A stretch of DNA of 64,000 bases. Source: an uncultured Arenicella sp. Lineage in GTDB: Bacteria > Pseudomonadota > Gammaproteobacteria > Arenicellales > Arenicellaceae. Location: assembly GCA_937974565.1 (NCBI GenBank), contig CALJWL010000004.1:1-64000 (forward strand). The letters run 5' to 3'. This document shows, in pieces, positions 58,758-64,000 of the stretch; the stretch's first letter is position 1, and each line of letters starts with the position of its first letter. Made by a program: the position numbers and the translations under genes. Under the pieces are notes generated by a model. It worked only from the letters and a program-made list of their open reading frames with translations, was not told the origin of the DNA and did no database searches.

Positions 58758-59939
58758 TTAAAAGTCATCGCTCGGAACTCTAACGTAGCCTTCCATCAGC
58801 ACTCGGGCGCTGCGGCTCATCCCAGCTTTTAACGCGGTCCAACGCCCGTCAACCTTCGCCGCTGTGCCACTAACGCTCAATGTACCGGACGGATGACCAA
58901 AAACCACTCTTTCACGCTCGCCACCGCCCGCCGCTAAATTGACCAGCGTTCCGGGTATTGCCGAAGCCGTGGCAATAGCCACAGCCGCCGTGCCCATCAT
59001 GGCGTGGTGCAGTTGCCCCATGGACATGGCCCTTACCAACAAATCAATGTCGTCACTGGAAATGGGTTTACCACTCGACGACACGTAGGCATGTGGCTTT
59101 GCCACATAAGCCACTTTCGGAGTGTGTTGGCGAGCCTTCGCTTCTTCCAGTTCACTAATTAACCCCATTTTTAAGGCACCATGCGCGCGAATATTTTCCA
59201 ACATTGCCAACTTATCTGGGTCGCGGTTTATATCGCCTTGCAACTCTGTTCCCAGTTGCCCTATCGCAACCGCATTAACAAAAATCGTGGGTATCCCCGC
59301 ATTTATCAGTGTGGCCTCAATGGTTCCTAAGCCCGGCACTTGCAGCTCGTCAACCACATTTGCGGTGGGCAATACTGAGCCATCACTTGCCGCAGGGTCG
59401 ATGAATTCCACGCGCACTTCGGCGGCTGGAAAGGTTACGCCATCCAACTCAAAACAACCCGTTTCTTGCACCTCGCCATTGGACATGGGCACATGCGCGA
59501 TAATGGTTTTATTGATATTGGCTTGCCAAATTCTAACCTCCGCTACCCCATCGCTGGGCACTCTATCAGCATCAATGAGGGCGTTGCTAATTGCAAACGC
59601 ACCCACAGCCGCCGTCAAATTACCACAATTTCCACTCCAATCCACAATGGGTTTATCAATGGAAACTTGCCCAAACAAATAATCCACATCATGGTCTTGC
59701 TTATCACTTTTGGAAAGTATGACCGTTTTACTCGTACTCGACGTAGCGCCCCCCATTCCGTCGGTTTGTTTACCGTAAGGATCGGGGCTACCAATGACTC
59801 TTAGCAACAAATTATCTCTTGCTTGGCCAGCCACTTGGGCGTGTTCAGGCAGATCACGCAAGCAGAAAAACACACCTTTACTGGTGCCGCCGCGCATGTA
59901 GGTGGCTCGAATTTTGGCTTGTGGTGCGTAATGGGTCAT
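58758..59939 (-). CDS. prpF: 2-methylaconitate isomerase PrpF
   Basis: 393 residues, family length. The N-terminal motif IRATYMRGGTSKGVFFCLRDLP and DGMGGATSSTSKTVIL are typical. The second half has AVGAFAI and HAMMGTAAVAIATASAIPGT. PrpF is a diaminopimelate-epimerase-fold enzyme that isomerises the 2-methylaconitate made by AcnD, in propionate catabolism by the 2-methylcitrate cycle. It lies 283 bases after acnD in the same direction. prpB and prpC are not in the window. Confidence 0.95.
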   Translation of the reverse strand: MTHYAPQAKIRATYMRGGTSKGVFFCLRDLPEHAQVAGQARDNLLLRVIGSPDPYGKQTDGMGGATSSTSKTVILSKSDKQDHDVDYLFGQVSIDKPIVDWSGNCGNLTAAVGAFAISNALIDADRVPSDGVAEVRIWQANINKTIIAHVPMSNGEVQETGCFELDGVTFPAAEVRVEFIDPAASDGSVLPTANVVDELQVPGLGTIEATLINAGIPTIFVNAVAIGQLGTELQGDINRDPDKLAMLENIRAHGALKMGLISELEEAKARQHTPKVAYVAKPHAYVSSSGKPISSDDIDLLVRAMSMGQLHHAMMGTAAVAIATASAIPGTLVNLAAGGGERERVVFGHPSGTLSVSGTAAKVDGRWTALKAGMSRSARVLMEGYVRVPSDDF

Positions 59940-60163: not shown

Positions 60164-60238
60164 GAAGGCTTTCATAGATTACGTTGAAGACTTTCATAGG
60201 TTACGTTGAAGACTCTTGTAGGTTAAGCTGAAGACTCC
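60164..60238 (-). repeat. 22-bp tandem repeat across the acnD stop codon
   Basis: Units start at 60164, 60186, 60208 and a partial one at 60230. Consensus on the plus strand is GAAGACTTTCATAGGTTACGTT. On the minus strand the first unit encodes the last codons of acnD (ESSA and TAA), and the next copies follow as untranslated sequence. The copies differ at several positions, so the duplication is not very recent. Confidence 0.85.
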
Positions 60239-62811
60239 AAAAAATCTTGGGCAAAACGCTGAAGAACCCCACCGGCTTCATAAATCGCCACTTCCTCGGC
60301 GGTGTCTAAACGGCATGTCATCACAGCCGATAATTGTTCTCCGTTTTTACGAGTAATGCGTAAAGTCAACATTGCTCTTGGCGTTCGTTCACCTTCAACA
60401 TGGTACAACTCAGTGCCGTCAAGTCCTAATGTTTTGCGCGTAACGCCATCTTGAAATTCGAGTGGTAAAACCCCCATTCCGATTAAGTTTGTGCGATGTA
60501 TACGCTCAAAACCTTCAGCGGCGATCACCTCCACGCCCGCAAGGCGAACGCCCTTCGCAGCCCAGTCACGCGAAGAGCCTTGGCCATAATCAGCCCCGGC
60601 CACAATAATCAAAGGCTGCTTGCGGTTCATGTAGTTTTCAATCGCCTCCCACATTCGCATTACCTTACCTTCGGGTTCAACGCGCGCCAACGACCCTTGT
60701 TTTACTTCACCGTTTTCTTGCACCATTTCATTTAACAGCTTGGGGTTGGCAAACGTAGCTCGTTGTGCAGTTAAATGGTCACCCCGGTGAGTGGCGTAAG
60801 AATTAAAGTCCTCTTCCGGCACCCCCATTTTGGTCAAATATTCGCCAGCAGCACTGGACGCCAATATCGCATTAGAGGGAGATAAGTGATCGGTGGTGAT
60901 GTTGTCGCCTAAAATAGCCAATGGGCGCATCCCGCTCAGCGTGCGTTCTCCAGCAAGTGCCCCCTCCCAATACGGTGGACGACGTATGTAAGTACTCATT
61001 TCACGCCAATCGTACAACGGGCTTACCTTTTTATCATGAGATACTTCAACATTGAACATCGGCTCATACACTTTACGAAACTGTTCTGGCTTAACCGATG
61101 CAGAGACAATGCTGTCGATCTCTTCATCCGTAGGCCAAATATCATGCAATTTAATTGGATTATTGTCTTGGTCGTAGCCCAACACGCCTTGCTCTATGTC
61201 AAACCGGATAGTGCCTGCAATGGCGTAAGCCACCACTAATGGCGGAGATGCCAAAAAAGCTTGTTTGGCATAAGGATGAATTCGACCATCGAAGTTACGG
61301 TTGCCAGATAAGACCGCCGTCGAGTACAAGTCACGTTCCACAACTTCTTTTTGAATTTCAGGGTCTAATGCGCCGCTCATACCATTGCAAGTAGTGCAGG
61401 CAAAGGCAACAATGCCAAAGCCCAGCGACTCAAGCTCAGCCAAAAGCTCAGACTCTTCCAAATACATTTTGACAGCCTTAGACCCTGGCGCTAAAGATGA
61501 TTTAACCCAAGACTTACGCTTCAAACCTAAGCGGTTTGCATTGCGCGCTAGCAAACCCGCGGCAATCACATTACGAGGATTGGATGTGTTTGTGCAACTG
61601 GTGATAGACGCAATGATGACCGCGCCGTCTGGCATTTTCCCTTCAACGTTTTCGACAACGCCAGTAATGCCGTGGCTCGCTAATTCATTGGTTGGAACTC
61701 GTCTATGGGGGTTTGAGGGCCCAGCAATATTGCGCCCCACACTGGATAAATCGAATGTTAGAACACGCTCATACTTGGCCGATTCTAATGCGTCCGCCCA
61801 AAGCCCCGTTTCTTTGGCGTAAGTCTCAACTAACTTAACCTGCTCGTCGTCACGCCCAGTGAGTGTCAGGTAATCAATGGTGTTTTGGTCAATGTAGAAC
61901 ATCGCGGCCGTTGCACCAAATTCAGGTGTCATATTTGAAATAGTCGCTCTGTCTCCCAACGTTAAGCCAGCAGCACCTTCGCCATAAAATTCAAGGTAGC
62001 AAGAGACAACGCGCTGCTCTCTTAGGAATTCGGTCAGTGCCAATACAATGTCAGTCGCCGTGATGCCTGCTTGCCGCTTACCTGTCAGTTCAACGCCAAC
62101 GATATCGGGCAATCTCATATAAGAAGCTCGCCCTAACATCACGCTTTCAGCTTCAAGGCCACCAACGCCAATTGCAATCACCCCCAAAGCATCTACGTGG
62201 GGTGTATGACTGTCTGTTCCCACCAATGTATCCGGAAAGACAACGCCATCTTTAGCATGAACAACAGGAGACATACGTTCAAGGTTAATTTGATGCATGA
62301 TCCCGTTGCCTGGTGGTATAACATCCACATTTTCAAACGCTGTTTTTGTCCAATTAATGAAATGAAAACGATCTTCGTTTCTACGCTCTTCGATTGCACG
62401 ATTTTTCTCAAAAGCATCTTCTTCAAAGCCTGCATGTTCAACAGCCAATGAATGGTCAACGATGAGCTGTGTTGGCACCACAGGGTTAACTTTCGATGGA
62501 TCACCCCCTTTCTCGGCAATGGCGTCACGCAAACCAGCAAGATCAACAAGCGCCGTTTGGCCTAAAATATCATGGCATACCACGCGCGCAGGAAACCAAG
62601 GGAAATCAAGTTCTCTCTTACGCTCGATTATTTGCTTTAACGAATCAGTGAGCAATTGAGGGTCGCATCGACGGACCAAATTTTCAGCCAACACGCGTGA
62701 CGTGTAAGGCAAAGTTTGGTAGGCCTCAGGGGCTATCTGATTAACGGCCTCCTTGGTATCGAAGTAATCAAAATCAGTGCCTTGCAGGCGCTTTCGGTAA
62801 TCGCTATTCAT
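60223..62811 (-). CDS. acnD: Fe/S-dependent 2-methylisocitrate dehydratase AcnD
   Basis: 862 residues from ATG 62811, with AGGG about 6 bases ahead; a TTG six codons upstream is less likely. It has the aconitase fold with the 4Fe-4S ligands in SITSCTNTS and ACTTCNG. The N-terminal YFDTKEAVNQI and PYTSRVLAENLVRR match AcnD, the methylcitrate-pathway enzyme that produces 2-methylaconitate and so needs PrpF. It lies upstream of prpF, but no prpC or prpB lies adjacent. A strong promoter with flanking palindromes precedes it, and its 3' end has been duplicated in 22-bp units. Confidence 0.94.
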   Translation of the reverse strand: MNSDYRKRLQGTDFDYFDTKEAVNQIAPEAYQTLPYTSRVLAENLVRRCDPQLLTDSLKQIIERKRELDFPWFPARVVCHDILGQTALVDLAGLRDAIAEKGGDPSKVNPVVPTQLIVDHSLAVEHAGFEEDAFEKNRAIEERRNEDRFHFINWTKTAFENVDVIPPGNGIMHQINLERMSPVVHAKDGVVFPDTLVGTDSHTPHVDALGVIAIGVGGLEAESVMLGRASYMRLPDIVGVELTGKRQAGITATDIVLALTEFLREQRVVSCYLEFYGEGAAGLTLGDRATISNMTPEFGATAAMFYIDQNTIDYLTLTGRDDEQVKLVETYAKETGLWADALESAKYERVLTFDLSSVGRNIAGPSNPHRRVPTNELASHGITGVVENVEGKMPDGAVIIASITSCTNTSNPRNVIAAGLLARNANRLGLKRKSWVKSSLAPGSKAVKMYLEESELLAELESLGFGIVAFACTTCNGMSGALDPEIQKEVVERDLYSTAVLSGNRNFDGRIHPYAKQAFLASPPLVVAYAIAGTIRFDIEQGVLGYDQDNNPIKLHDIWPTDEEIDSIVSASVKPEQFRKVYEPMFNVEVSHDKKVSPLYDWREMSTYIRRPPYWEGALAGERTLSGMRPLAILGDNITTDHLSPSNAILASSAAGEYLTKMGVPEEDFNSYATHRGDHLTAQRATFANPKLLNEMVQENGEVKQGSLARVEPEGKVMRMWEAIENYMNRKQPLIIVAGADYGQGSSRDWAAKGVRLAGVEVIAAEGFERIHRTNLIGMGVLPLEFQDGVTRKTLGLDGTELYHVEGERTPRAMLTLRITRKNGEQLSAVMTCRLDTAEEVAIYEAGGVLQRFAQDFLESSA

Positions 62812-62882
62812 GTCGAACCCTGTTGTCAAAAGAGAATGCGTAAGAGTGCGATAATTCAGAGAAAAAACGAATGCAAATCAAT

Positions 62883-62957
62883 ATTGTTTACAATAATCGC
62901 AACTATTATGTAATTTTAGGACTTAATCCGTTAATGTCAACTAAGATTGTAAACAAT
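62883..62957 (-). promoter_or_regulatory. acnD promoter bracketed by two ATTGT-NN-ACAAT operators
   Basis: Palindromes ATTGTTTACAAT (62883-62894) and ATTGTAAACAAT (62946-62957) have centres 63 bp apart. Between them on the minus strand lie TTGACA (62935-62940) and TAAAAT (62913-62918), 16 bases apart, a near-consensus sigma-70 promoter. The distal site abuts the -35 box and the proximal one lies just past the expected start point. This suits repression by a dimeric regulator of the GntR type known for propionate genes (inference from site form). No regulator gene is adjacent. Confidence 0.65.
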
Positions 62958-63096
62958 AAAGAGAGATAGTGCGCTTTATCGTCAATATTAATAAAGGCTT
63001 ATCCGTTTCGGTATACATCGAAACTAATCACACAGCCGAGCATGGGGTTAGGCCCACTGAACTTTTAGGTTTTCACCGAAAGCAAGAGACGATTGA

Positions 63097-64000
63097 TTAC
63101 ACAGAATGAGTCGAATAATATTTGGAGAATACGTTAACGAATGACTCTATTTCACTGGCGGGTAAACTGTTGATGCCAGCCGCCGCCGCTCTTCCCCCAC
63201 CCGTTGGAAATTGCCTACATACGTCATCAGCGCCGGTTTTGCGTGACAGCGGTGCCCGAACACTGACCACAAAAGTGCCATCGTGGCGCTCAGTCACAAC
63301 GGCATGAGCTTTTTCCGGTGACTGGTTTGCTAAATCATTACCAAAGACACCGCTCACACGTCGCGCCCAAGATTCATTAGGTAGCTGGTAGACGGCTGAA
63401 TCTGAGTCTTCATAAAAAGGGTTGGAGTTTACGGCCTTCGCCATGTCTTGATGGTAACCTTCTTCAAGCGTCTGATATGTTTCCTTATCTTGTTGAATAA
63501 ACTCCAAAGCCGTCTGATGGGATACCGTTTTTTTGAATAACTCAGCTGGGTTGTAATATAGGTCTTCTAATGAAGTGCCGTAACCGTTGTAATTCAGATA
63601 GACACCCAGTTTTTCCAATTGACCTAATTGCGAAGTAGATAGGCCCAATGGCTTAGCCAGTATTTCGGCACTGCGCTTAAGGTTATCGCCAAACGTGCCC
63701 ACTACGGCCCACTCAAGGTATTGACCACCCAACCGCTTATTTATCAAAAGAGACGTGCAGACATCAGGACTGGTATTGATTAACGCGTCAAGATGAGCGT
63801 TCTCTGGAATCTCACCAGCATAGTGATGATCGCAATAAAACACGTCGGCTTTGGTTTCAAGTATTCGAAGTAAATCTTCTCGATTTTTGTCCAACGAAAC
63901 ATCCAATACCGTCACTCTATCAGCGGGACCTGCCGTGACTCGATTGAGAAGCTTAATGTCTCGTTTAACACCGGTTATCAGTTCAGACACTCTCGGTTCA
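63097..64000 (-). CDS. DHH family phosphoesterase, N-terminus outside the window
   Basis: At least 300 residues; the frame stays open to the window edge, and the N-terminal metal motifs expected before SELITGVKRDIKLL are missing, so the GTG at 63990 is not taken as the start. DHH features visible are FYCDHHYAGEIPE and the later GGGRAAAAGIN of the DHHA1 part. DHH enzymes cleave phosphodiesters, including linear dinucleotides and nanoRNA; the substrate here is unknown. It ends 63097, about 285 bases before acnD. Confidence 0.8.
   Translation of the reverse strand, partial: EPRVSELITGVKRDIKLLNRVTAGPADRVTVLDVSLDKNREDLLRILETKADVFYCDHHYAGEIPENAHLDALINTSPDVCTSLLINKRLGGQYLEWAVVGTFGDNLKRSAEILAKPLGLSTSQLGQLEKLGVYLNYNGYGTSLEDLYYNPAELFKKTVSHQTALEFIQQDKETYQTLEEGYHQDMAKAVNSNPFYEDSDSAVYQLPNESWARRVSGVFGNDLANQSPEKAHAVVTERHDGTFVVSVRAPLSRKTGADDVCRQFPTGGGRAAAAGINSLPASEIESFVNVFSKYYSTHSV

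Follow-up and report, generated by a model that had tools for sequence, protein, structure and literature searches.

Palindromes six helical turns apart at the acnD promoter of an uncultured Arenicella look like a two-site operator of the propionate regulator PrpR

Upstream of acnD in an uncultured Arenicella sp. there are two palindromes that could serve as landing sites for a regulator, and the locus raises the questions of which protein would bind there and why two sites lie at this distance. The window, which is the whole stretch of 64,000 nucleotides analysed here (contig CALJWL010000004.1, positions 1 to 64,000), carries the following features in this region.

58758-59939, minus strand: prpF, 2-methylaconitate isomerase (TIGR02334, 691 bits, cut-off 441), the next gene downstream of acnD
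60223-62811, minus strand: acnD, Fe/S-dependent 2-methylisocitrate dehydratase, 862 aa, with ATG at 62811 (TIGR02333, 1754 bits, cut-off 1420); given in the list of open reading frames as 868 aa from TTG at 62829
62883-62894, no strand: candidate downstream operator ATTGTTTACAAT, exact palindrome, at about +18 from the predicted start
62913-62918, minus strand: predicted -10 element TAAAAT, 16 nt from TTGACA, with the start predicted near 62906
62935-62940, minus strand: predicted -35 element TTGACA, 5 bp from the upstream operator
62946-62957, no strand: candidate upstream operator ATTGTAAACAAT, exact palindrome, at about -45 from the predicted start

The pair stands upstream of acnD-prpF, 63 bp from centre to centre with 51 bp in between, and 63 bp corresponds to six helical turns. 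The two putative landing sites are near-identical and match the PrpR-type palindrome ATTGT-NN-ACAAT, consensus ATTGTCGACAAT. Both had been reported by the initial annotation, which was made from the letters of the window, and they are exact at those positions. The only exact matches of ATTGTNNACAAT in the window are these two, and looser matches with at most two mismatches numbered 48 against 51.6 expected, which is no excess over chance. The promoter which that annotation placed between the palindromes is also present: the minus-strand TTGACA-16-TAAAAT has 11 of 12 matches to the sigma-70 consensus. By itself it counts for little, because a promoter scan of 62700-63110 gave two promoter-like sites against a shuffled mean of 1.2. 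A gene on the same strand upstream of acnD (63097-63999, continuing rightward) has a DHHA1 match below threshold, and the scan found no terminator-like site between this gene and acnD, so some read-through into acnD is possible.

The regulator had been supposed to be encoded elsewhere or lost, and it is encoded elsewhere. The genome of the organism (72 contigs, 3.37 Mb) contains on contig C57 a prpR of 242 codons with GntR and FCD domains, followed downstream by prpB (406 bits, cut-off 354) and a prpC-like citrate synthase gene; loss of the regulator is rejected on this arrangement. The initial annotation had proposed looking for a GntR-family regulator near prpC/prpB and for further ATTGT-NN-ACAAT copies near propionate genes, and the C57 locus supplies both: an exact site (C57:24928) stands directly before prpR, with a weaker partner TTTGTATACAAA 62 bp upstream of it. 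The regulator is thus present and, with sites at its own promoter, probably controls itself. The pair at acnD looks like a two-site operator of this GntR-family propionate regulator.

There are eight exact sites in the genome, two at acnD, one before prpR, and another five that lie within other open reading frames or close to them. By simple arithmetic from this density, any given site has a chance of about 2e-4 of a second one at 45-80 bp. No further pair was found in the genome beyond acnD and prpR when exact cores were searched at gaps of 40-66 bp. One of the five other sites (C4:71414, L018:7415-7426) falls inside a frame that by eye resembles a short-chain dehydrogenase, some 250 bp from the frame's start and 8 kb from acnD; it is single, and a partner was not seen.

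The spacing is nearly constant within the genus. A search for two exact palindromes at gaps of 40-62 bp in 61 genomes (this organism and its relatives) yielded 16 such pairs, spread over 13 genomes and each spaced 62 or 63 bp; ten precede acnD and six prpR (frames read by eye), and the reversed control gave no match. When the search used the core TTGTNNACAA at gaps of 40-66 bp, 25 pairs were found in 16 of the 18 genus genomes, the present one included with exactly two pairs; 21 were at 62 bp, four at 63 bp and none at any other of the 27 allowed spacings, and the reversed control had one match, in G001. Thirteen of these pairs precede acnD and twelve precede prpR. Gaps of 9-39 and 63-93 bp yielded no pairs in 21 genomes, of which 13 belong to the genus. 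By eye, the DNA between the sites showed no common sequence across species or between acnD and prpR promoters, so the distance itself is what is kept. As the 13 genus acnD promoters were collected by the pair pattern, they cannot tell how many acnD promoters are without a pair.

The predicted promoter is less constant than the spacing. The window has a predicted promoter bracketed by the two sites, as had been described, but this was not seen as a general feature: a comparable promoter was predicted by eye in four of the 13 genus acnD promoters (G000, G011, G013 and G017). In these four, TTGACA or TTGACT lies 4-5 bp past the upstream site, and the predicted -10 element is TAAAAT or TAAATT; the -35-like elements are TTGACA in G011 and G017 and TTGACT in G013, with TAAAAT at 16 nt in G011 and G013. 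In five others (G002, G006, G007, G009 and G012) an extended -10-like TG-N-TA...T abuts the upstream site, again predicted by eye. The idea that the spacing is fixed by the promoter in between is weakened by these differing positions, which argue for the protein, rather than the polymerase, as what sets the distance. The information profile of the 52-bp group (14 promoters) and the 62-bp group (17 promoters) had no third operator between the sites; it had weak TTGA- and ATAT-like stretches, which may be promoter elements. In 61 promoters the inner DNA was slightly richer in A+T than the flanks (0.616 vs 0.574 and 0.560).

Across the class, 369 genomes searched at gaps of 36-66 bp gave 25 pairs in 16 genomes, and the reversed control gave matches in two genomes. 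Eighteen pairs were at 62 or 63 bp, and the others were at 51, 55, 65, 71, 73, 73 and 78 bp. Seventeen of the 25 precede acnD, prpR or a propionate/acetate-CoA ligase-like gene, which scores under the propionate-CoA ligase cut-offs; five of the 17 are in the genus of the window, and among the other 20 pairs ten are before prpR and two before the ligase-like gene. The remaining eight of the 25 are at other genes or unclear. One class genome (G294) has four 62-bp pairs (L131, L132, L133 and L143), before prpR, aceE (pyruvate dehydrogenase E1, over cut-off), a glutathione-transferase-like gene (by eye) and a reductase-like gene (under cut-off), as if the regulon had grown. In another genome (G249, L140) the same palindrome occurs twice at a distance of 78 bp, next to a further GntR gene and within what by eye resembles a purine-degradation cluster.

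To remove the bias of searching by spacing, a set of prpR promoters was collected by protein searches, from the best 80 of 588 confirmed AcnD loci and 45 PrpR matches in 39 of the 369 genomes. In total 141 loci (80 + 16 + 45) were scanned, and 108 upstream regions were left once loci lacking a PrpR match of 120 bits or more, and regions identical to another, had been discarded. For the Rayleigh analysis we excluded ten regions whose locus carried neither prpB nor acnD, leaving 98; for the phase count the five found by spacing (L103, L104, L106, L115 and L118) were dropped as well, leaving 93. A pair at 45-80 bp with at most two mismatches in all was present in 64 of the 93 promoters and in none of 100 rounds of composition shuffles. 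Sixty promoters had a single best pair in this range, and in 59 of them the spacing was within 1.5 bp of 52.5, 63 or 73.5 bp, which are five, six and seven turns of 10.5 bp (by-chance fraction 0.31); the sole off-phase promoter had a spacing of 71. Best pairs at 55-61 or 65-70 bp were absent from all 108 upstream regions. Chance palindromes are rejected by the site density of the genome, the spacing searches in the genus and this 93-promoter set. The six-turn spacing first noticed in the window is therefore strongly constrained, at 62 or 63 bp in the genus and in phase at prpR promoters across the class.

For the 79 of 98 promoters that had a pair, the phase was close to zero and the Rayleigh length at 10.5 bp was 0.80. 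It was 0.83 at 10.6, 0.78 at 11.0, 0.61 at 10.0 and 0.70 at 9.5, which does not single out 10.5, so it is the gaps between the classes that carry the argument and not the exact period. The promoter rows come from related species, and p-values would overstate their independence. In a quick tree built of the 108 PrpR-like proteins, 43 of the 104 inner branches are weak; placing the 78 phased-class rows on it takes a minimum of ten switches between classes. The turn class is strongly clustered on this tree, so common descent accounts for part of the pattern. Only three of 81 paired rows fell outside classes centred at 52.5, 63, 73.5, 86 and 116.5 bp, with ties read in favour of a class.

The integer-turn rule is broad but not absolute. 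In 19 of the 93 prpR promoters no pair reached the threshold; in these, the best in-phase second site had on average 2.9 mismatches vs 5.1 for the best off-phase one (ten offsets each). By our reading, six of the 19 lacked a convincing in-phase second site even when the stringency was lowered (L065, L165, L168, L175, L180 and L191), and L065 has two exact sites just 19 bp apart. Pairs of the Pseudoalteromonas clade are 86-87 bp apart, or 8.2 turns, slightly out of phase; those of Halomonas relatives are at 116-117 bp, and Hahella, L037 (149) and L188 (71) are outside the phase pattern.

We consider it likely that the palindromes are PrpR operators and that dimers bound on the same face of the DNA hold each other, most likely as a tetramer which loops over the acnD promoter and shuts it. 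One PrpR dimer would sit on each palindrome. With six helical turns from one site to the other, both dimers would face one side of the DNA, where they could clasp each other; the resulting tetramer would close a short loop over the promoter. Binding of 2-methylcitrate or 2-methylisocitrate would loosen PrpR, and acnD-prpF and prpRBC would open together. Here DNA binding, repression and the likely inducer are carried over from the Pseudomonas relative and may apply by analogy, while PrpR binding at the acnD and prpR sites, cooperativity, the tetramer and the loop are what we infer from the pairs. Spacings that differ by about 10 bases, and not by about 5, argue for contact between bound dimers on one DNA face. 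A tetramer closing a short loop would be the simplest version of this contact, and Atu1419 is a precedent for it. Loops of 52-73 bp are stiff, and strong protein contacts or help in bending would be needed. Loops in lac- and gal-type repression resemble the proposed one in placing a pair of operators around a promoter, on one face of the helix; they differ in that their proteins are of the LacI family and their natural loops are longer.

The phase dependence would be accounted for equally well if PrpR dimers cooperated without touching, by allostery transmitted through the DNA or by jointly trapping RNA polymerase; phase would matter in both cases, and neither loop nor tetramer would be needed. 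DNA-mediated cooperativity between transcription factors has been reported (PMC8170675), and for trapping the predicted promoter of the window sits between the operators. As a general reason trapping is improbable, since just four of 13 genus acnD promoters have such a promoter, and in our judgement spacings of 73 bp, perhaps also 116-117 bp, are long for DNA allostery. We regard cooperation without contact as unlikely, though it is the most probable of the rivals.

The two sites could also be independent operators, one at the -35/alpha-CTD side and one in the start region, whose spacing follows from the promoter or from common descent. The window sites at about -45 and +18 around the predicted promoter suit such blockers, and the clustering of turn classes on the PrpR tree suits shared descent. 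For independent blockers whole turns would not be required, yet in-phase spacing is seen in 59 of the 60 clear pairs, and the intervals of 55-61 and 65-70 bp hold no best pair. A spacing that was only inherited is at odds with at least ten class interchanges, counted on a quick tree whose forks are in many cases weak, and with just three of 81 paired rows off-class. A spacing set by the promoter is at odds with acnD and prpR promoters both keeping 62 or 63 bp without a visible common inner sequence. Independent operators are thus quite improbable.

That PrpR is an activator, with the upstream site facing RNA polymerase and the phasing coming from contact with it, seems very improbable. The unrelated Fis-family PrpR of Enterobacteria does activate (PMC3223726), and a site near -45 could touch polymerase, yet deletion and complementation showed the GntR-type PrpR of Pseudomonas to repress (PMC9765439), a downstream site near +18 suits blocking, and the predicted promoter does not keep one place with respect to the pair.

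The genome has a second PrpR-like GntR/FCD gene (contig C66, L181:3981-4661), flanked by an ETF-quinone-oxidoreductase-like gene (by eye; no NCBIfam match at threshold) and etfB/etfA-like genes. It is hardly credible that the acnD sites serve this paralogue in place of PrpR: the paralogue shares 43% identity with PrpR, and the divergent gap at its gene contains one near-identical site ATTGTCGACATT, yet the scan of upstream regions found no pair there or at the same-genus copies L182-L184, and acnD-prpF adjoins prpRBC in relatives. Three other PrpR-like genes without a nearby prpB have one site each; of these, L193 also has a weak 73-bp pair, so the contrast between PrpR and PrpR-like genes is not absolute.

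Five relatives have prpR-prpB-prpC next to acnD-prpF in convergent orientation, and the operators lie at the outer ends; of these, G003 showed no prpF, and in G006 prpR has a degenerate partner site. In the present genome prpC is followed by an inositol-monophosphatase-like gene and then by transposase-like pieces (by eye), and acnD-prpF is on another contig than prpRBC, about 25 kb from the nearer contig end, with its pair intact. The two gene groups are on different contigs also in G011, G013 and G014. In two genomes (L147 and L148) prpRBC with a 63-bp pair is divergent to an O-acetylhomoserine sulfhydrylase-like gene (by eye).

Structures of related proteins are on record. PDB entry 7xp0, which we take to be PmiR (7xp0/7xp1 are listed with PmiR), matches the PrpR of this organism at E 1e-61, and 6z74, presumably Atu1419, matches it at E 3e-16. 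The PmiR study (Cui et al. 2022), going by its title, reportedly has 2-methylisocitrate as the inducer. AlkR is also a GntR/VanR repressor, with the palindrome ATTGTCAGACAAT and a binding stoichiometry which suggests four AlkR per fragment; it differs from PrpR in its three-base centre, its one main site with two weak extra sites and its role in alkane regulation.

The motif, its 2-nt centre and the assignment to a GntR-type PrpR are already published (PMC3223726, PMC4494728, PMC9765439). The PrpR of Shewanella and other Gammaproteobacteria is likewise a propionate regulator of the GntR/FadR subfamily, and its sites, like those of the window, have a 2-nt centre between GT and AC; the available portions of these accounts describe no paired, helically phased operators for its regulon (PMC3223726, PMC4494728). 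The 2015 paper of this set mentions double sites in divergent operons and one group with a near-constant inter-site distance, which is the nearest published idea in the available text. In Pseudomonas aeruginosa, PrpR/PmiR (PA0797) has the same 12-nt palindrome before prpR, binds the prpR upstream region and represses the prp operon, and 2-methylcitrate was proposed as its inducer (PMC9765439). The available part of that paper describes a single palindrome 84 bp upstream, in contrast to the pair in the window; one Pseudomonas and one Azomonas promoter have a second site 73-74 bp away. Atu1419 of Agrobacterium fabrum is a tetrameric GntR/VanR repressor with an FCD-type sensor and two palindromes, for which looping was proposed, and GntR regulators before it were described as dimers (PMC7797058). 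Unlike PrpR, it has the palindrome ATGTATACAT and sites 190 or 109 bp apart, and it does not regulate propionate genes (PMC7797058).

Phased PrpR operator pairs appeared in no paper among the literature matches listed, and a mention in the PmiR paper or the J Bacteriol 2012 paper on propionate regulation is possible. The motif and the regulator are known, and the spacing rule with the phased pair is apparently new. It is a known sort of operator in a new form, and not a new kind of system. For the class as a whole, we think it somewhat probable that the gammaproteobacterial PrpR operator is as a rule a pair at five, six or seven turns, that PrpR/PmiR is a cooperative, probably tetrameric looping repressor, and that the published single-site accounts miss a degenerate partner.

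The class-wide phase-locked pair is a strong and cheap prediction on repression by GntR/FCD proteins, a large family usually described as simple dimers. Its practical pointer is to seek a weaker companion of a known site, at a distance of about 52, 63 or 73 bp, and the prpR promoters offer natural spacing variants of one regulator. For this organism, paired operators explain how acnD-prpF could sit apart from prpRBC under shared control.
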